From NCBI GenBank assembly GCA_016196415.1, contig JACPXS010000117.1:1-6940 (forward strand): DNA of 6,940 bases. Reading direction: 5' to 3'. Below, piece by piece: positions 1 through 6,940 of this stretch. The DNA comes from Candidatus Omnitrophota bacterium (GTDB taxonomy: Bacteria; Omnitrophota; Koll11; Aquiviventales; Aquiviventaceae). The first letter of the stretch is position 1. Every line of letters starts with the position of its first letter. Below the pieces are notes generated by a model, which saw only the letters and a list, made by a program, of their open reading frames with translations, made no database searches and was not told where the DNA came from. Made by a program: the position numbers and the translations under genes.

Positions 1-66
1 CTGAAGGCCTACGCCAAGCAGTTTGACCGGAGCCTCTACGTGAAAGAACGTCGCTCGGCTCCTTAG
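1..66 (+). CDS. C-terminal end of an unidentified gene (partial)
   Basis: Frame 1 is open from the window edge to a TAG at 64-66 and gives 21 residues ending in VKERRSAP. The other two forward frames stop at positions 2 and 22, and third codon positions are mostly G or C as in the neighbouring genes, so a genuine gene end is plausible. The fragment is hydrophilic and basic and has no recognisable motif, so no function is proposed. It converges on the PilZ gene on the opposite strand. The 54 bp between the two stop codons (67-120) contain no hairpin with a T run that would serve as terminator for either gene. Confidence 0.45.
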   Translation: MKAYAKQFDRSLYVKERRSAP

Positions 67-120
67 CCGGGACAACCAGAGGGACCCTGACGGGCGGGCG
101 CGGGCGAGGCGATGAGCGGA

Positions 121-1200
121 TCACCGCTCCAGGTCATGCACACGAACCCAGACCGTGGAGCTCTTGGGCGTGGGTTGACCGTCCCGAATAACGTATCCGC
201 CATTGCCTTGCCCGGACGGATTCCGATCGTTGGACGGGGGGCGGTCCGGCTCGGCGGAAACGCGCTCGCGCTCCTGCTGATGAGCGGGGTTCGAGCCGGG
301 GGACGGGACGCTCAGAAATCCCGCAATCAGCGGGTTCGAGGATGTCTGAGCGAGCGCATCGCGCAGAGCCCCCTCACGCACCTCAACGGCTTCTCGAATC
401 GCCTGGTGAAGCTCGGGGAGCGAGATGGAAGATCGAGCGAGCAACGCGCGCTCCTGCTTCACGTCGAGGAGTCGCTGCATGAGTTCTTCGCGCTCCCCAT
501 GTACACGCTCGTACGACTGCTGAAAACGCTCGATCTCCCGATCTAACCGCTCAGTCTCAGCTTGAAACAGCGCGGCCTCCTGACTCAATCGCGCGACTTC
601 CCCTGAGGTGGCGCTCACGTAAGTCCTGCTTGCCATCAGTTCACGTGCCGCTTGCGCTTCCCGCTGTTTCAACCGTAGGATGAGAGTGTTGCGCTGCTCC
701 AGCATGATTTCCAGCTGGCGTTGACGGCGGTGCGCTGAGTCGATCCACACGCCCCAGGCGAGTATGAGCAACAGCCCCGCAAGTCCGGCCGAACGCCAAG
801 CCGACGGGCCAACGTTCCAGACACCCACAGTAGCGGATTGAAACGCAGCGCTCGGAGCCGGCGTACGTTGGATTCGGTGCGCAAGGAATTCATGCAGCCG
901 ATGGCGAGTCGCCTCTTCGAGTGAGAGCCATTCAAGCCCAAGCGGATACCAGCGGCCCTTGAGCGGCTCTGAGGCTGACCACCGGACCACCCCGGTGGCG
1001 GTCAAGACCTCTCGTTCCCCCGGAAGCGAAAACCCGACGGTCACCTGTTCGCCACTGCGGTATGCCTCGCGCACCAAGAGGCCGACCCCCTGCTCACTGA
1101 GATTCGTAATGCGGCCATCGCGCGGAAGAAGATCGTCGGCAGGACAGTACTGCGCGCGGCACACGTGCGGGGTTCGAATGGTTGCGCGGCGCTCTTGCAT
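121..1200 (-). CDS. Gene C: PilZ domain protein with transmembrane segment and coiled coil
   Basis: This is a 359-residue protein and probably a c-di-GMP effector. Residues 1-110 form a PilZ domain: R5-xxx-R9 just after the start and NLSEQG at 33-38 match the two c-di-GMP-binding motifs, RxxxR and (D/N)xSxxG. A hydrophobic helix lies at about 137-153. It is followed by a charged helical stretch at about 157-255 with coiled-coil character, a Pro/Ser/Asn/Gly-rich linker (285-335) and a short ordered tail containing DGQPT and WVRVH. The frame is open 25 codons further upstream to 1275, but that extension overlaps gene B; the ATG at 1198-1200 lies 4 nt after gene B's stop and puts RxxxR at the usual N-terminal place. 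No Shine-Dalgarno sequence is visible, so translation may be coupled to gene B. If PilZ is cytoplasmic, the coiled coil would be periplasmic, yet the basic cluster HRRQRQ after the helix argues the reverse. PilZ assignment is firm; partner and output are unknown. Confidence 0.85.
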   Translation of the reverse strand: MQERRATIRTPHVCRAQYCPADDLLPRDGRITNLSEQGVGLLVREAYRSGEQVTVGFSLPGEREVLTATGVVRWSASEPLKGRWYPLGLEWLSLEEATRHRLHEFLAHRIQRTPAPSAAFQSATVGVWNVGPSAWRSAGLAGLLLILAWGVWIDSAHRRQRQLEIMLEQRNTLILRLKQREAQAARELMASRTYVSATSGEVARLSQEAALFQAETERLDREIERFQQSYERVHGEREELMQRLLDVKQERALLARSSISLPELHQAIREAVEVREGALRDALAQTSSNPLIAGFLSVPSPGSNPAHQQERERVSAEPDRPPSNDRNPSGQGNGGYVIRDGQPTPKSSTVWVRVHDLER

Positions 1201-1204
1201 GGAA

Positions 1205-3367
1205 CTAGGGGCGTGCCGACCGGAATGTTTCCACGAGCTGATCGAGTTGCGCCCGCGTTGACGCAGACAGACCAATCAGCCGATACCCGCTCCGGTACTG
1301 GGAAGACCCATCCTGGACTCGCTGCCACTTCACGTGAGCCCTGGATTCAATGGGAGAATGACCAGGCACCGTGATGCGAATCCGCAGCGAGGGGCGCGCC
1401 GGAAGCTCCTGGGCCGTTTCCAATCCCACCCCTGCACTGCTGAGATCCCGAAGCGATCCGGCCATCACGGAACCTTGCTTGCCGTTGCGCACCTCCACGG
1501 ATCCCTCCGGAACGCGAACGCGAGCCTGGCGGCGCCGGTTGCCTGAGGCTTCCAAGAAACCCAACTCTCGCTTCACGATGGCGAACGCTTCCTGCAACGC
1601 GCGTTCCCGACCCGTCGACGCTTGAAGCTGCTGCTGGAGCTCGGCGAGCTGCGCAGCCAACTGCTCATGCTTCGCCCGCTCTTCATCGAGGACGCGAGCG
1701 GCTTCAGTCGTTCCCTGCTCGGCTGTCTCGACCTGTTTGGCGCCATCTTGCAAGATGGCCAACTGCGTTTCCAAATGGCGCACGCGCTCCTGGGATTCGC
1801 CAAGGTACCACTGACTCTCTTCCCAGCGCTTGCGCAGTGTATCGGCCTCGCGCTCCCATCGTTGGATATCCGCCTCGTACCGGCGGAGCTGTTCGCTAAA
1901 TTCGCTCAACTGCGTTTCCAGCTTGGCGGACTTCGCTCGCTCCTCGCCAAGGGACCAACTGGCTACGTTGCGCTGTCGACGCAACGCTTCGAGCTCTTCG
2001 GTGTATTGGCGCACCGCAGCCCTGGCCTCCTCCAGACGCGCCCGGCTCTGTTCAAGCTGTCTCGTGAAATGCTCGTTGCCGGCCCCTGCGCTCAGTAACT
2101 CGACCACCTGCTCCCGCTCAACCAGCGCCACGCGGTGCTCCTTCGCCAGGCGCTGTGCGGGGATGGTGAACGTCCCCGCGGCCACGAGGAAACCTTGCGC
2201 GGCCTCAGCGCCGCGCATGGCGTTGATGAACTGCTCAACGGTCTGCTTTTCAAAAAATGGCCCTGACCCAACGAACAGGAGCGCCGATTTGACATCATCT
2301 TTTGTGATCACTCGCAGCGTGCCGAGCGGGGTATGCAGAAGTTCTTTCTCAAGGACGAGTTGGTAGCCTTGCCGTTCAAACGCCCGCCAGACTAACTGAT
2401 CAATGAGGATGACGCCGGCGGGCAGCCGACCGGTGGGGAGCGCGCGGCCAACGAAGCGCCCTGGGCCCTTCCAAGAGAAAACGGCCCAGAACCCCGCACC
2501 GCACGCCAGCCCAAGACCCAGGAACCCGACCGCCCAGGAGCTCGCCGGTGTGCGACGCGCTGCCTGTGGTGGCGCTCCGGACGGCTTCATCGTCCACGCA
2601 CCGGGGCGTGAGGAGACCGGGGCTCCTGGCTCGCGTCGTAACGAGAGGGTTGTCATCTCCGAATCGCCTGGACCCGTCGAAGCCGACGGCGATCCTGATG
2701 ACCGCAGAGCAACCTCGCTGATGCCATCGCCAGTGGACTGAACACTCCCGCTAGGCGTTAAACGTTGCGAGGCTGCTGGGGCGGCGTTGAGTGGCAGCAC
2801 CCACGTCGCGGGAGTCGCTTGCGCCATCGCGTGTTGCATAGCGCGGAACCGCTCGCTGATGTTCACGGCTCCGAGCCCGCTGATCACCGTCCCGCCCCGT
2901 AACCCGACCTCGACGTCCGCACGACCGACCGAAACCGGATGATCGATTTCCACCACGACCTGCCCAGGCTCTGACCGGACACGAAAGGGATGCGGGGCAT
3001 CCAACGTGATGGCCACGGACTGGATGAAGCGTGTGGGCGGCGCGCCCGTTGGAGAACCGTAACGGGCGGCGATGGCTCGAACGACTCCCTGCCCCCCCAC
3101 GGTTCGTTCCGGCAACAACCCCACCACCCGCTGACCAGGGAATTCAATCATGATCGTCGGCGGCTGCTGGAGCAATCTCGTCCGGACGGTCAAGGTTTCT
3201 TCCGAGCCAACCTTGAGAATGACCGAGGTCGTGCTCATCGCAACTGGATCCGTGGTCTCAGCGGCCCGCGCTGGGAGGGACGAGAGACCGATCCACACGC
3301 TCCATCCTATGAGCAGCGATGGGATCCAACGTTCGGTCATTCGGTGAGCACGTGAGCGACCCGCCAT
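1205..3367 (-). CDS. Gene B: AMIN-like / TM / Mrr-like / coiled coil / PilZ fusion protein
   Basis: This 720-residue multidomain envelope protein has, in order: a signal peptide (hydrophobic core about 14-32, cleavage probably after PARA at 35); a beta-rich region at about 45-145 resembling AMIN domains, which in known proteins bind peptidoglycan or target periplasmic machines; a Ser/Pro/Gly linker (146-275); a transmembrane helix (277-299); an Mrr/restriction-endonuclease-like domain (about 315-426, with FERQGY, QGFLVAAGTFT and VALVEREQ); a long coiled coil (430-605); and a C-terminal PilZ domain (610-715) with R612-xxx-R616 and DLSSAG at 641-646. The D...(E/Q)xK nuclease triad is not recognisable (KDDVKSALLFVG stands where it is expected), so this domain is probably structural or ligand-sensing. 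The predicted topology is periplasmic AMIN with cytoplasmic Mrr-like, coiled-coil and PilZ parts. The first ATG lies 3 nt after gene A's stop; the ATG at 3338-3340 (MTERW) gives a more usual signal peptide. Neither has a clear Shine-Dalgarno. The coding call is firm, the Mrr-like assignment moderate. Confidence 0.85.
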   Translation of the reverse strand: MAGRSRAHRMTERWIPSLLIGWSVWIGLSSLPARAAETTDPVAMSTTSVILKVGSEETLTVRTRLLQQPPTIMIEFPGQRVVGLLPERTVGGQGVVRAIAARYGSPTGAPPTRFIQSVAITLDAPHPFRVRSEPGQVVVEIDHPVSVGRADVEVGLRGGTVISGLGAVNISERFRAMQHAMAQATPATWVLPLNAAPAASQRLTPSGSVQSTGDGISEVALRSSGSPSASTGPGDSEMTTLSLRREPGAPVSSRPGAWTMKPSGAPPQAARRTPASSWAVGFLGLGLACGAGFWAVFSWKGPGRFVGRALPTGRLPAGVILIDQLVWRAFERQGYQLVLEKELLHTPLGTLRVITKDDVKSALLFVGSGPFFEKQTVEQFINAMRGAEAAQGFLVAAGTFTIPAQRLAKEHRVALVEREQVVELLSAGAGNEHFTRQLEQSRARLEEARAAVRQYTEELEALRRQRNVASWSLGEERAKSAKLETQLSEFSEQLRRYEADIQRWEREADTLRKRWEESQWYLGESQERVRHLETQLAILQDGAKQVETAEQGTTEAARVLDEERAKHEQLAAQLAELQQQLQASTGRERALQEAFAIVKRELGFLEASGNRRRQARVRVPEGSVEVRNGKQGSVMAGSLRDLSSAGVGLETAQELPARPSLRIRITVPGHSPIESRAHVKWQRVQDGSSQYRSGYRLIGLSASTRAQLDQLVETFRSARP

Positions 3368-3370
3368 GGC

Positions 3371-4048
3371 TTAGAGGACCCGAACGAGATCATTGATACG
3401 GATTTCAATGGTCTCCCATTCTGGCAAGACGGTGGCGGCACACACCCCTTCTTGAACGCGCTCGATCCGCGCCTTGGCAAGCAACTGGTCACCTCGAAAG
3501 ATGGAGACGGTATCTCCGATGCGGACGGCATCCCATCCTAAATCGATCACAACAAAGTGCCAGTCCCGGTTGATGGAGAGCACCCGGCCACTCAATGCAG
3601 ACGGCTCCGCATTGCTGACGACCACGCGCTCTAACTGGACCGGGCTCGCGTGCTCCGATCCCCCACCGCTTTTCTGTTGCTGAAGCGCCAGGGCGAGTTC
3701 CCCTTGGAGCTGGTCGCTCTGCTGTTCGATCGCGGAAAGACGCGCGTGGAGCTCTTGGGTTTTTCTGGCTTCCTCGCTCAGCTGGGCCATGGCCCCCTCC
3801 ATTTGCGTCCGGACCTGCGCTAAAGCCTCGGTGAGCTCTCGGGAGCGTTGTTGCTCGTGCTGGAGCTCCGCTTTCAACCGTTCATCGGTTGCCAAGACCT
3901 CCCCAAATCGCAACTCGAGCTGTCGGCGAGCTTCCAAGGCGTCCCGGTAGCGAGACTCAAGTGTTTGACGATACCGATACTCCCACGCCATCCCTCCCAT
4001 AACAACCACCCCGAACACCGCCACGAGGATCTGACGTCCTCTGCTCAC
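3371..4048 (-). CDS. Gene A: membrane-anchored coiled-coil protein with C-terminal beta domain
   Basis: This 225-residue protein has no family I can name. It has a short basic N-terminus (MSRGRQ), one hydrophobic helix (about 6-22), a long Glu/Gln/Arg/Leu-rich coiled coil (24-126), a flexible KSGGGS linker, and a C-terminal domain (139-225) of alternating beta strands with GRVLSINRDW, VVIDLGWDAVRIGDTV and a final INDLVRVL. That pattern (G-x-V...hydrophobic-D-LG...G-D) resembles SH3-like or barrel domains in secreted and envelope proteins. The N-terminus suggests helix insertion with the coiled coil and beta domain in the periplasm. I prefer the GTG at 4046-4048 because GGGGAGGG (4057-4064) lies 8 nt upstream; the frame stays open to a TTG at 4087, which would add 13 residues but lacks this ribosome binding site. 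It is first of the three-gene operon and its stop is 3 nt from gene B's start. Confidence 0.8.
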   Translation of the reverse strand: MSRGRQILVAVFGVVVMGGMAWEYRYRQTLESRYRDALEARRQLELRFGEVLATDERLKAELQHEQQRSRELTEALAQVRTQMEGAMAQLSEEARKTQELHARLSAIEQQSDQLQGELALALQQQKSGGGSEHASPVQLERVVVSNAEPSALSGRVLSINRDWHFVVIDLGWDAVRIGDTVSIFRGDQLLAKARIERVQEGVCAATVLPEWETIEIRINDLVRVL

Positions 4049-4053
4049 TCCGC

Positions 4054-4188
4054 TCACCCTCCCCGCTGACCACTCCGCTGCCAACAAAAAATCCCCAACG
4101 ACACGTTGTCCTTGGGGATCACTCCGTTGTCCACCACGAGCTGGCCTTCGACACCGTTCTTCTTATCCCGCTTCAAGCGAACCGCCAC
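4054..4188 (-). CDS. Possible small protein or leader peptide, 44 codons
   Basis: An open frame runs from a GTG at 4186-4188 to a TGA at 4054-4056. The peptide begins VAVRLKRDKKNGVEG and ends QRSGQRGG. Over its first 32 codons the GC content by my count is about 84% at position 3, 66% at position 1 and 28% at position 2, the ordering typical of real genes in GC-rich genomes; the preceding in-frame stretch lacks it and ends in TAG directly before the GTG. The ribosome binding site is weak (CAGG, 7 nt upstream). Its stop lies 5 nt before gene A's start, matching the 3-4 nt junctions further down the operon. Its distal half is also the arm of a terminator-like hairpin, so it could be a leader peptide controlling read-through, a small protein, or chance. 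I recognise no homologue. Confidence 0.35.
   Translation of the reverse strand: MAVRLKRDKKNGVEGQLVVDNGVIPKDNVSLGIFCWQRSGQRGG
4057..4064 (-). promoter_or_regulatory. Ribosome binding site deciding the start of gene A
   Basis: The minus strand reads GGGGAGGG followed by 8 nt and then GTG at 4046-4048. It is the best Shine-Dalgarno match in the operon and favours this GTG over the upstream TTG at 4085-4087. It lies within the last codons of the upstream 44-codon frame, whose TGA ends 5 nt before the GTG. Confidence 0.55.
4086..4119 (-). terminator. Intrinsic terminator or attenuator in the leader of the PilZ operon
   Basis: On the minus strand ATCCCCAA pairs perfectly with TTGGGGAT (forward arms 4112-4119 and 4091-4098). 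One mismatch is followed by an inner GACA/TGTC stem closed by a 3-nt loop, and a run of six T follows immediately at 4091-4086. The shape is that of a strong rho-independent terminator. It lies about 150 nt downstream of a predicted promoter but 38 nt upstream of gene A, so it would either end a short RNA or act as an attenuator controlling entry into the operon. Confidence 0.65.
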
Positions 4189-4259
4189 CTAACAACCTGC
4201 GCGGTGTAAGCGTCCGTGACCACACGCCTTCAATTGTCCCCGCACCACAATCGCTTAAC

Positions 4260-4269
4260 GTTCGCGAAC
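4260..4269. repeat. Perfect 10-bp palindrome at the predicted transcription start
   Basis: GTTCGCGAAC is identical on both strands and coincides with the first ten predicted transcribed bases of the PilZ operon. It could be an operator half-site pair or a small 5' hairpin in the RNA. A 10-bp palindrome can also arise by chance. Confidence 0.3.
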
Positions 4270-4275
4270 AATCAC

Positions 4276-4304
4276 ACACTACCAACTGTGGTATCACTTG
4301 TCAA
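4276..4304 (-). promoter_or_regulatory. Sigma70-type promoter of the PilZ operon
   Basis: A perfect TTGACA (forward 4299-4304) is separated by 17 bp from TAGTGT (4276-4281; 3 of 6 matches to TATAAT). The predicted start is near 4269, giving a leader of about 220 nt before gene A. The -35 is exact and the spacing ideal, but the -10 is weak, which would suit an activated or otherwise regulated promoter. Confidence 0.5.
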
Positions 4305-4313
4305 CACCATAGT
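4280..4313. repeat. Inverted repeats around the -35 box (possible operator)
   Basis: ACTGTGGTAT (4285-4294) and ACACCATAGT (4304-4313) are inverted repeats matching at 8 of 10 positions, with centres 19 bp apart and the -35 box between and partly within them. A second short palindrome, TACCA-ACTG-TGGTA, occupies 4280-4293 in the spacer, and GTATCA is repeated directly at 4291 and 4312, 21 bp apart (two helical turns). This arrangement is typical of a dimeric regulator's binding site, but no particular regulator can be named. Confidence 0.35.
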
Positions 4314-4334
4314 ATCATCAGCGCGATAACGAAC

Positions 4335-4358
4335 ACGGCGAGTCGCACGACTCGCCGT
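4335..4358 (-). terminator. Hairpin terminator after tRNA-Leu
   Basis: ACGGCGAGTCG (4335-4345) and CGACTCGCCGT (4348-4358) form a perfect 11-bp stem around two bases (effectively a 4-nt loop). On the minus strand it begins 20 nt after the tRNA 3' end and is followed by GTTCGTT, only a mild U-rich tail. It separates the tRNA unit from the PilZ operon promoter. On the plus strand it is followed by CTTTCGCT, so it is mainly useful in the minus direction. Confidence 0.6.
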
Positions 4359-4378
4359 CTTTCGCTGGGAGATTGAAA

Positions 4379-4460
4379 TGGGGACGACAGGATTTGAACC
4401 TGCACCCCTTGCGGGACTAGGCCCTCAACCTAGCGCGTATGCCAGTTCCGCCACGTCCCC
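4379..4460 (-). tRNA. tRNA-Leu (anticodon GAG)
   Basis: The minus strand folds as a class II tRNA of 82 nt: acceptor GGGGACG/CGTCCCC, three-pair D stem GCG/CGC, anticodon stem CTAGG/CCTAG with loop TTGAGGG (anticodon GAG, reading CUC and CUU), long variable arm with CCC-GCAA-GGG, T arm GCAGG-TTCAAAT-CCTGT, and discriminator A. The CCA end is not encoded (ATTTC follows). Its first 44 nt are overlapped by the ilvD reading frame on the same strand. No strong separate promoter is evident; TATGAC about 18 nt before the mature 5' end is a weak -10 candidate without a -35. It may depend on read-through from cobO-ilvD. Confidence 0.95.
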
Positions 4461-6249
4461 CTCGTTGAACAGCGTCATACAGAGCCCGACGCTTCCGCTT
4501 GCCGGATGACGCGCGAGCCCCACGCTCCTCCCTGTGACCGTTGTGAGTGCGCGGGCTCTCCGTCAGCCCATCACCCATCCCTGTCACAGCGCCCTCCGAC
4601 GCGGAAGAAACCAGTCGCGCATACTTGCTCATCACCCCAGCACGGTAGTGTGGAGTCGGCGCTCGCCACCGGGTGAGCCGGCGTTCAAGCTCAGCCGCCG
4701 AGAGCTCGACGTCGAGCCGCTTGGCCGCGACATCAAACGCAATCATATCGCCATCGCGCACCAGGGCAATGGGACCTCCGACCGCCGCTTCGGGTGCGAC
4801 GTGTCCAGCCATCAGGCCTCGGGTCGCGCCGGAGAACCGTCCATCGGTCAGTAACGTCACGGACTCCCCGAGCCCTTGACCCACAAGCGCGGCAGTCACG
4901 GCGAGCATTTCCCGCATGCCAGGCCCGCCTTTCGGACCTTCATAGCGAACGACCACGGCATCGCCTCGTTTGATCAGCCGCCGTTGCACGGCCGCAAACG
5001 CGGCTTCCTCGCAATCAAACACCCGAGCCGGACCACGATGGCGAGACGGCTCATGTCCCGTGATCTTAACCACGCACCCCTCAGGAGCCAGGTTGCCGTG
5101 GAGCACGACAAGGCCGCCGGTCCGACGCAGGGGGTTGGTGATCGGACGCACTACGACTTGCCCCCGCGTTTCATTCGCACGCTTGGCCTCTTCCCCGATG
5201 GTGCGACCCGTAACCGTGAGGGCGTTCCGGTGCAGGCGGTGCGCCTGCAGTAACCGTTTGATGATCAGTCCCACCCCGCCGGCTTGATAGAGATCGGTCG
5301 CGACGAAACGACCCCAGGGCTTGAGATCGGCCAACAGCGGGGTCTTGCTGCTGATCCGGTCAAAGTCATCGATCGAGAGCGGCACCCTTGCTTCCCGAGC
5401 AATCGCGAGCAGGTGCAAGACGCTGTTCGTCGATCCGCCTGTGGCGGCCACGGCGGCGATGGCGTTTTCCAGCGCCTGGCGCGTCACGATGTGACGGGGA
5501 CGGATCCCGTGGTGCAGAAGATCCATCACCAACTTGCCGACCTCGAACGCCACGTCGTCTTTGCCTGGATCCATGGCCGGCACGCTGGCGCTGCCCATCG
5601 GCGAGAGGCCCAGCACTTCAATCGCCATGGCCATCGTATTGGCGGTGAACTGGCCCCCGCACGCTCCAGGGCCTGGGCAGGCCTGATTTTCCAACTCGCG
5701 CAGGGCGCGCGCGCTCATCTTCCCGGCAGCGCATGCGCCCACCCCCTCAAACACGTCTTGAATCGTCACGGAGCGGCCGTGAAACTGGCCGGGCGCAATG
5801 GACCCACCGTAGAGCATGAGCGAGGGAAGATCCAGCCGGATGAGCGCCATGACCGTGCCGGGAATCGTCTTATCGCATCCGGAGAGCGCGACCACGCCGT
5901 CGAAGAGATGGCCGCGCACGACCAGCTCAATAGAATCCGCCACCACTTCGCGACTGACAAGCGAGGCCTTCATCCCCTCCGTGCCCATACTGATTCCATC
6001 CGAGATCGCAATCGTATTGAACTCAATCGGGGTCCCGCCGGCTGCGCGCACGCCCGCCTTCACGCGCTCTGCCAGACGCCGCAGATGGGAGTTGCACGGC
6101 ATCACCTCGATCCACGTGTTGGCGATGCCGATGAGCGGCCGCTTCAAATCCTCATCGGTGAACCCGACCGCTTTCAGCATCGCGCGCGCCGGCGCACGAT
6201 CCCTGCCGTCTAACAACACGCGGCTCACGGCACGCAGAGTCTCTGGCAT
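4417..6249 (-). CDS. ilvD: Dihydroxy-acid dehydratase
   Basis: IlvD removes water from 2,3-dihydroxy-isovalerate and 2,3-dihydroxy-3-methylvalerate to give the 2-keto acids for valine, leucine and isoleucine; it is a cytoplasmic iron-sulfur enzyme. Family motifs are intact: MPCNSH with C52, GCDKT with C125-D126-K127, CPGPGACGG with C191 and C197 (cluster and metal ligands lie in these motifs), GGSTNSVLHL at 271-280, and TDGRFSGATRG at 468-478 with the catalytic Ser at 473. The ATG has AAGGA 9 nt upstream and lies 12 nt after the cobO stop, so the two are probably co-transcribed. The family normally ends shortly after SSASEGAVT (residues 548-556); this frame continues for about 54 mostly basic residues and stops at a TAG within the anticodon stem of tRNA-Leu. 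Both other frames meet a TGA near the normal end (4584-4586 and 4571-4573), so an indel, by mutation or sequencing error, may have created the extension. Identity is certain; the C-terminus is doubtful. Confidence 0.96.
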   Translation of the reverse strand: MPETLRAVSRVLLDGRDRAPARAMLKAVGFTDEDLKRPLIGIANTWIEVMPCNSHLRRLAERVKAGVRAAGGTPIEFNTIAISDGISMGTEGMKASLVSREVVADSIELVVRGHLFDGVVALSGCDKTIPGTVMALIRLDLPSLMLYGGSIAPGQFHGRSVTIQDVFEGVGACAAGKMSARALRELENQACPGPGACGGQFTANTMAMAIEVLGLSPMGSASVPAMDPGKDDVAFEVGKLVMDLLHHGIRPRHIVTRQALENAIAAVAATGGSTNSVLHLLAIAREARVPLSIDDFDRISSKTPLLADLKPWGRFVATDLYQAGGVGLIIKRLLQAHRLHRNALTVTGRTIGEEAKRANETRGQVVVRPITNPLRRTGGLVVLHGNLAPEGCVVKITGHEPSRHRGPARVFDCEEAAFAAVQRRLIKRGDAVVVRYEGPKGGPGMREMLAVTAALVGQGLGESVTLLTDGRFSGATRGLMAGHVAPEAAVGGPIALVRDGDMIAFDVAAKRLDVELSAAELERRLTRWRAPTPHYRAGVMSKYARLVSSASEGAVTGMGDGLTESPRTHNGHREERGARASSGKRKRRALYDAVQRGGRGGTGIRARLRA

Positions 6250-6261
6250 GAGATCCGTTCC

Positions 6262-6819
6262 TTAGTAGTCGATCCCAAGCTGAGCCGGGATCCGTCGTTG
6301 CCACGGGTGTTTGATCTCTCGCATCTCGGTGACCAAATCGGCGCGGTCGAGCAACGCCTGGGGGGCGTCGCGCCCCGTCAGGATCAGATGCAGCGACGGC
6401 GGCTTCGCGTCGAGGAGCGCGAGGACCTCCTCGAGCGTCACCAACTGCACCCCCGCGTAATCGATCGCGTAGATGATCTCATCCAGCACAATCAAGTCGT
6501 AGGTGCCCGCGGTGATCTGTTCGGTGGCCACGCGCAGGGCGTCTTTGGCAGCGGCCAGATGTTCGCTAAACGGCTTGGCGTCTCCCATGTGTTTCACGAA
6601 GCCCTTGCCGAGCTGCAGGACCTCAAGCTGGGGCGCCAGCCGCTTGCCCATTTCCACTTCACCAAAGATCACCGGCCATTCCCCTTTAAAAAACTGGATG
6701 ATGAGCACGCGCCACCCATGCCCCAGCGCTCGGAACGCCGCCCCTAACGCTGCTGTGGTCTTGCCCTTACCGTGCCCCGTATAGATGAGGATCAGACCGT
6801 GGCGAGCCGCTGGAGACAT
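6262..6819 (-). CDS. cobO: Cob(I)yrinic acid a,c-diamide (corrinoid) adenosyltransferase
   Basis: CobO/BtuR-family enzymes transfer adenosyl from ATP to reduced corrinoid cobalt, making adenosylcobalamin or its precursor in the cytoplasm. The 185-residue length is normal. Visible motifs are the P-loop GHGKGKTT (15-22), which in this family binds ATP in an unusual orientation; IQFFKGEW (40-48); the acidic VLDEI (111-115); LTGRDAP (147-153); and the closing IKHPWQRRIPAQLGID (169-184). All are in the expected order with none missing. The ATG is the first in-frame start after a TGA 15 nt upstream. It lacks a Shine-Dalgarno and lies only about 8 nt after the predicted transcription start. It is first in a pair with ilvD; branched-chain amino acid synthesis needs no cobalamin, so the link is probably positional. 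CobO and BtuR cannot be separated from sequence alone. Confidence 0.95.
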   Translation of the reverse strand: MSPAARHGLILIYTGHGKGKTTAALGAAFRALGHGWRVLIIQFFKGEWPVIFGEVEMGKRLAPQLEVLQLGKGFVKHMGDAKPFSEHLAAAKDALRVATEQITAGTYDLIVLDEIIYAIDYAGVQLVTLEEVLALLDAKPPSLHLILTGRDAPQALLDRADLVTEMREIKHPWQRRIPAQLGIDY

Positions 6820-6833
6820 CCCGGTAGGGTGTC

Positions 6834-6862
6834 AGTGTAACAAACCGCCTCGACGGTGTCAA
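6834..6862 (-). promoter_or_regulatory. Sigma70-type promoter of cobO-ilvD
   Basis: A perfect TTGACA (forward 6857-6862) is followed after exactly 17 bp by TACACT (6834-6839; 4 of 6 matches to TATAAT). The predicted start is near 6827, leaving about 8 nt before the cobO ATG. GGTGTCA occurs directly at 6828-6834 and 6855-6861, next to each box, and might be a regulator site. There is no room for a cobalamin riboswitch. Confidence 0.55.
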
Positions 6863-6901
6863 AGTTCCAAGCGAATCTAAGAGCGCCTCACTGCTCTGTC
6901 G

Positions 6902-6927
6902 AAAACCCCCTGCGATGGCTGCTGGGG
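6902..6927 (-). terminator. Possible terminator of the gene beyond the right edge
   Basis: The minus strand reads CCCC-A-GC, a 7-nt loop, then GC-A-GGGG, G and TTTT. That is a four-pair GC stem, one A-A mismatch, two more pairs and a short U run. It lies about 40 bp upstream of the cobO promoter and would separate cobO-ilvD from an upstream minus-strand gene. The stem is short, so this is tentative. Confidence 0.3.
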
Positions 6928-6940
6928 CCACGGGGCCTGC

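Follow-up and report, generated by a model that had tools for sequence, protein, structure and literature searches.

A candidate transmembrane c-di-GMP receptor of unusual composition encoded by a three-gene PilZ operon of Omnitrophota

What is the function of three tightly packed genes, each encoding a membrane segment and two of them a PilZ domain, in an uncultured bacterium? The genes, here called A, B and C, lie in a stretch of 6,940 nucleotides (nt) from Candidatus Omnitrophota bacterium (contig JACPXS010000117.1, positions 1 to 6,940), which in its entirety is referred to as the window. A preliminary description, made from the sequence alone, suggested that the three products form one complex carrying a cyclic di-GMP (c-di-GMP) signal across the inner membrane. 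Combining domain searches, structure models, alignments of relatives and the reading of related loci, we consider it probable, at roughly 0.6, that A, B and C make up a transmembrane, c-di-GMP-gated envelope scaffold. The open reading frame (ORF) calls agree with the minus-strand layout first described, with junctions of 3 nt between A and B and 4 nt between B and C. The genes and the parts of B are as follows.

3371-4048, minus strand: gene A, 225 amino acids (aa) from GTG at 4048; a membrane segment, a 124-residue helix in the structure model and a C-terminal beta barrel
1205-3367, minus strand: gene B, 720 aa from an ATG start
B, hydropathy peak from residue 15: signal peptide or first membrane segment
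B, residues ~44-155: AMIN-type domain, assigned through intermediates
B, residues 277-297: membrane segment (hydropathy peak from 279)
B, residues ~317-416: inactive-looking restriction-endonuclease fold (Pfam Mrr_cat and a fold match)
B, residues 418-605: long helix of 188 residues in the structure model
B, residues 610-720: PilZ domain (Pfam match 610-713)
121-1200, minus strand: gene C, 359 aa from an ATG start; an N-terminal PilZ domain and a linker lead into a single membrane segment, followed by a coiled coil and a tail conserved as GYxxRxGxPT

The two PilZ domains carry much of the argument. Their position at the C-terminus of B and the N-terminus of C, with intact motifs, is borne out by Pfam, by fold in the case of B and by alignments of relatives; both Pfam matches (E 3.2e-9 in B; residues 3-107, E 4e-10 in C) lie over the curated cut-off. 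The relatives considered are the best 120 of 136 for B, of 293 for A and of 122 for C, about 8000 candidates having been scored for each; the alignment of B consists of the window protein and 112 of the 119 others, with P0095, P0102, P0106, P0110, P0116, P0119 and P0120 dropped as short. In this alignment the RxxxR arginines 612 and 616 are invariant (113/113), and a pattern search finds both PilZ motifs in 106 of the 113 proteins. For C, both motifs are present in 103 of 120 relatives and RxxxR in 119, and where the second motif is missed, its first position mostly holds S or T rather than D/N. Both domains would be expected, from these motifs, to bind c-di-GMP.

The domain list of the preliminary description was right about the two PilZ domains and overlooked a further part of B, its endonuclease-like domain. 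The Mrr_cat match (E 2.7e-7) is borne out by a structural match to the model of B, which has a mean pLDDT of 76. Mrr-type endonucleases carry the catalytic motif D...(Q/E)xK; at positions 365-367 on the third strand, the B family mostly has F/C, V/I/L/A and G/W/A, with no Lys among the six commonest residues, and even a loose D/E..(E/Q)xK pattern is found somewhere in the endonuclease region of just 21 of 113 proteins. The fold is inactive-looking, its catalytic residues being lost.

An AMIN domain in B gains support by way of relatives. The Pfam search lists no AMIN for the window protein itself, and two long-form B proteins match at E 0.03 (genome G300) and 0.34 (G305), both under the Pfam cut-off. 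Among relatives of a shorter form, described below, L055 (24.7 bits) and L043 (20.8) pass the cut-off of 20.5, L059 and L060 come slightly under it (20.4 and 19.3), and L047 has no listing; L055, L043, L059 and L060 all align to the B profile at its N-terminus. No AMIN appears among the best 50 structural matches of B, although these lists are filled by PilZ and endonuclease folds and so are hardly a test. A search of the PDB by sequence with B gave 0 matches at E up to 0.01, and Pfam finds neither an amidase nor a secretin domain in it. The title of a published paper describes AMIN as binding peptidoglycan. As an observation of its own, a motif is repeated along residues 458-580 of the B coil, with the family consensus reading NEASWYLGEERA / WEESQWYLGESR; it is strongly conserved, and W471, W520, G523 and E524 are invariant across the 113 rows.

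That each gene encodes a membrane segment and a coiled coil agrees with 19-residue hydropathy peaks in A, B and C and with the helices modelled in A and B, while the coil of C is weakly indicated, by weak coiled-coil matches; such matches in Pfam and NCBIfam (to CENP-F, SMC and similar proteins) are not counted as homology. The NCBIfam search gave no name above cut-off for any of the three proteins, and Pfam at E up to 0.1 lists neither GGDEF nor EAL within them. Charges were counted in 111 of 120 A, 111 of 119 B and all 120 C proteins. The hydropathy peak of C begins at residue 138, with a mean net charge of +2.92 before the membrane segment and +0.44 after it; the N-terminus is placed inside in 100 of 120 relatives, and the coil and tail are predicted to be periplasmic. 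A small membrane/coiled-coil family (L070-L074) has a coil and a tail like those of C, the tail resembling GNRGYxxRxGxxT, and no PilZ domain.

The longest frame of A opens at TTG 4087 (238 residues), but GTG 4048 is most likely the start, as most of the 120 relatives listed measure about 222-238 aa. The hydropathy peak begins at residue 19 of the 238-residue frame. The C-terminal barrel, which matches one chain of the LPHT ring that we take to be FlgT, is probably of FlgT_C type in the model; in a PDB sequence search with A, the best 60 of 100 matches are confined to the coiled-coil region. Elsewhere in the phylum, a widespread paralogue of A adjoins an aroA-like gene in L041, L042, L045, L048 and L049, with mreB- or mreC-like genes (names read by eye) past it in L041, L045, L048 and L049, and this paralogue is possibly an envelope or shape protein.

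Linkage of the three genes was followed in 384 Omnitrophota genomes, drafts of unstated completeness. B is found in 14 (E up to 1e-20), each time with A beside it, and operon-type A matches (at least 277 bits) occur in exactly these 14 genomes, the next best reaching 151 bits. At 13 of the 14 syntenic loci C is present, full length or nearly so in 12; the remaining C matches span the membrane segment and coil only. The alignment of C has 11 rows, the copies of L025, L027 and L031 being left aside. The order A-B-C, as read at the 14 loci, is conserved across relatives, and homologues of the operon type, whose scattering would have spoken against a common system in the preliminary description, were found linked. 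A wider A-like family extends to 275 of 384 genomes at E up to 1e-10; counting all of these as carriers of the system was rejected, since the A-like genes read outside it are often the paralogue elsewhere. In L025 (genome G296), B and C read as a single frame of 1028 aa; a gene fusion was rejected there, as B loses its frame inside the PilZ domain and C is read on in the shifted frame, which suggests a frameshift or an assembly error and lends nothing to an interaction of the two proteins. A relative of B at 42% identity sits on a contig labelled Candidatus Omnitrophota, and the organism names among the relatives listed are Omnitrophota, Omnitrophica or "bacterium" only.

The pairing of A with B reaches further than the full operon. 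Two A-like genes of distant genomes directly precede a protein that matches B at both ends and lacks the endonuclease fold. When matches of a search with this short form were set against A-like matches and ORFs, the shorter A-B pair, without C, was found in 13 further genomes outside the clade: adjacency was read from ORFs in G218, G246, G331, G377, G222, G017, G157, G212, G314, G292, G127 and G224 and from coordinates only in G201, while the short-form matches G094 and G292:C5 stand outside this count. The junctions of the 13 pairs measure -32 to +26 nt. Weak points among them are an A-like match of just 19.9 bits in G377, a broken short B frame in G331 and G224, and a short B without a matched AMIN part in G222. 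G305 and G365 hold a second A-like gene followed by a B-like gene with no visible AMIN part, the copy in G305 being cut by a contig end. Where short B is linked to A in L055-L058, there is, by eye, little or no coil between the membrane segment and PilZ, and in L047, L059 and L060 it ends in glycogen-binding AMPK1_CBM/CBM48 modules after PilZ. With pairs outside the clade and variable B ends, the recurrence of A-B goes beyond the inherited block of the clade, and the cytoplasmic end of B varies. As the pairs in these 13 genomes have neither C nor the nuclease fold, A-B is probably the older module, to which C and the nuclease fold would have been added later.

A potential source of the signal adjoins the operon. 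The preliminary description saw no neighbouring GGDEF gene, and this does not hold, as the window begins with the following feature.

1-66, plus strand: 3' end of a REC-GGDEF gene (response regulator / diguanylate cyclase-like), convergent with C, reading LKAYAKQFDRSLYVKERRSAP-stop

This gene is cut by the window edge. Its end matches LKAYAKQFDRSIYVQERR... in L001, where the copy has Pfam Response_reg and GGDEF, and 12 REC-GGDEF copies at the same place have like C-termini. Beyond it, relatives carry genes for a histidine kinase, a FIST protein and a canonical GGDEF protein; in L001 a second response regulator comes first, then the histidine kinase, the FIST protein and the GGDEF protein. A GGDEF gene converges on the operon at 14 of 14 loci, of the REC-GGDEF type at 12, while L021 and L027 lack REC-GGDEF, kinase and FIST here and have the canonical GGDEF gene directly adjoining C. 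The canonical protein carries GGDEF and an RxxD motif in all 12 copies read. REC-GGDEF reads GGDDF (HIGGDDF) in 11 of 11 copies (L001, L019, L020, L022, L024-L026 and L028-L031; the L023 copy, cut before the motif, is outside the count) and covers only positions ~5 to 82-120 of the 161 in the GGDEF profile. The altered motif and the partial alignment make its cyclase activity doubtful, and it may be a cyclase that has degenerated or serve in binding instead. The neighbour survey of the 14 loci covered ten kinds of gene, with pilus genes outside them, and nothing seen at the operon ties it to a glycan synthase or to flagella. Across the 14 genomes there are 3-17 GGDEF matches per genome and, in all of them, 1-4 matches to HD_5, presumably of HD-GYP type; these organisms seem equipped to synthesise, break down and sense c-di-GMP.

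The anatomy, the folds, the intact motifs, the linkage of the genes, the recurrence of A-B and the GGDEF neighbours are computed results; how such a system might work, from the formation of a complex and the orientation of A to ligand binding, the transfer of the signal and its output, is a hypothesis built on this composition. B would span the inner membrane, with its AMIN domain in the periplasm, probably on peptidoglycan, and its dead endonuclease fold, very long coiled coil and C-terminal PilZ domain in the cytoplasm. A would be the dedicated partner of B, with a coiled coil anchored in the membrane and a FlgT_C-like barrel, most likely periplasmic, and C would contribute a second PilZ domain, which its single membrane segment ties to a coil in the periplasm. 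In the most likely mechanism c-di-GMP, partly from the adjoining diguanylate cyclases, would bind both PilZ domains and rearrange the long coils in a form of inside-out signalling, whereupon the periplasmic AMIN and barrel parts would hold the wall, or an envelope machine, differently. A candidate for the latter would be the machinery of the type IV pilus/secretion ATPases, which are abundant in these genomes.

Several observations weigh against this proposal. Charge rules leave the topology of A unfixed (N-terminus inside in 34 of 111 proteins, the opposite in 55), a crude signal-peptide pattern fits just 56 of 112 full-length B proteins, and the AMIN match of L055 has no single stretch that passes alone. 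C is absent from the locus of G147 and short, by truncation, in G158. In L055-L058 and L051, G replaces S in the second PilZ motif, which makes binding doubtful there, and the B-like genes of L062, L064 and L065 have no A-like gene within about 1.5 kb. Synteny within the clade, where ilvD lies upstream at 11 of 14 loci (two others end at contig ends, and L027 is without ilvD) and cobO is present at 6, could be plain inheritance. As there are 7-12 PilZ matches per genome, the operon is not the sole c-di-GMP receptor. EAL and FliG_C are each found in 0 of the 14 genomes, absences that in drafts are weaker than they look; with EAL in no genome and HD_5 in all, removal of c-di-GMP probably rests on HD-GYP enzymes, and flagella, judged by the one family FliG_C, seem to be lacking.

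Other explanations need to be weighed against the same evidence. It is possible, if rather doubtful, that the GGDEF neighbour is incidental and that the operon merely travels with ilvD and tRNA-Leu as part of a conserved stretch of the chromosome: the frequency of ilvD upstream would fit, as would the GGDDF motif and partial profile alignment of the REC-GGDEF copies, yet in L021 and L027, where REC-GGDEF, kinase and FIST are missing, a canonical GGDEF gene stands directly beside C. A different output is offered by the suggestion that type IV pili or type II secretion are under the control of the operon, with A, B and C as scaffolds of the FimV or PilO type through which c-di-GMP would position the pilus machine or switch it. 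PilQ is one of the proteins known to carry AMIN, and the genomes hold 7-18 matches to T2SSE-family ATPases each and no match to FliG; among the T2SSE matches listed, however, one is on an operon contig (G259, ~28 kb away), nearer pilus genes not having been searched for, and the A paralogue is closer to aroA-like genes than to pilus ATPases. We regard this suggestion as unlikely.

Still less probable, in our estimation, is that A and B form a structural scaffold from wall to cytoplasm, serving cell shape or envelope spacing, in which PilZ is a minor tuning or dimerisation module. The helix that dominates B and the A paralogue beside aroA-like genes, with mreB- and mreC-like genes beyond, speak for it, but it sits poorly with PilZ arginines that do not vary in any aligned B protein, with a second PilZ domain brought by C and with a GGDEF neighbour at every locus. 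A far more speculative extension, to which we give very little credence, would see in A-B a general c-di-GMP-controlled wall tether of Omnitrophota with an exchangeable cytoplasmic cargo adaptor: here the dead endonuclease fold, perhaps on the chromosome or another nucleic-acid complex, and elsewhere the glycogen-binding modules. Were it true, the timing with which a cytoplasmic body is attached to the wall would be set by c-di-GMP.

The remaining features of the window lie upstream of A.

4086-4118, minus strand: terminator-like hairpin CCCCAAGGACAACGTGTCGTTGGGG followed by ATTTTTT, ~40 nt upstream of the A start
4335-4358: second terminator-like hairpin, separate from the first, between the tRNA and A
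4379-4460: tRNA-Leu(GAG)
4417-6249: ilvD frame, extending 44 nt into tRNA-Leu

With one pattern, which takes the assumed A start as reference and misses weaker T-runs, a hairpin comparable to that at 4086-4118 turns up close to A at 10 of 15 loci. The hairpin is a possible attenuator of the operon and has no match in Rfam. A known c-di-GMP riboswitch in the leader was ruled out, there being no such match in the window at E up to 1, and a conserved upstream peptide before A was likewise rejected, as the frames vary from locus to locus.

The significance of a gated scaffold of this kind would lie in a concrete candidate for a c-di-GMP route to the envelope in some Omnitrophota, a phylum described as uncultured and mostly ultra-small, with host-dependent traits (PMC10066038); a term search of the main text of that paper finds no c-di-GMP, PilZ or GGDEF. 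If the proposal is true, this transmembrane receptor senses through PilZ and has neither an EAL nor a synthase module, a dead nuclease fold serves it as a membrane-bound domain, and its core pair recurs in the phylum with differing cytoplasmic parts. PilZ binding and A-B pairing are testable on recombinant proteins without culture of the host. The literature searched, which most subscription papers lay outside, holds no description of the A-B-C composition and nothing joining a PilZ domain to a restriction endonuclease-like domain, or to glycogen-binding modules and AMIN; PilZ and AMIN domains are mentioned together in the reference list of one paper only. In line with the preliminary description, which knew of no named system of this composition, no characterised system was matched in our searches.

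Comparison with known systems places the operon more precisely. LapD is described as an inner-membrane c-di-GMP receptor that signals inside-out to the periplasmic LapG. Like it, the operon would provide a protein in the membrane that senses c-di-GMP on the cytoplasmic side and presumably takes effect in the periplasm, with the same direction of signal. LapD senses through a degenerate GGDEF-EAL module, whereas the operon has PilZ, AMIN and coiled coils, with no protease partner seen and no EAL in the 14 genomes, and A-B-C is outside the LapD family. We know of no AMIN domain, endonuclease fold or coiled coil of this kind in MotI/YcgR, Alg44 or BcsA, from which the operon also differs in that neither a glycan synthase nor a flagellar link was seen beside it. 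B probably shares with AmiC and PilQ, on the evidence of its relatives, an N-terminal domain of the AMIN family, but it has no amidase or secretin domain and is joined to a cytoplasmic PilZ domain. Its fold and lost catalytic Lys recall inactive Mrr-type folds (NA-iREase1 and, by fold, RPB5), except that in B the fold is membrane-tethered, with PilZ in the same chain. The C-terminal barrel of A is likely similar to that of FlgT, although there is no FliG match, probably no flagellum, and A is membrane-anchored via a long coil. Set beside these systems, A-B-C would be a new variant, a transmembrane c-di-GMP receptor of unusual composition whose core recurs in the phylum.
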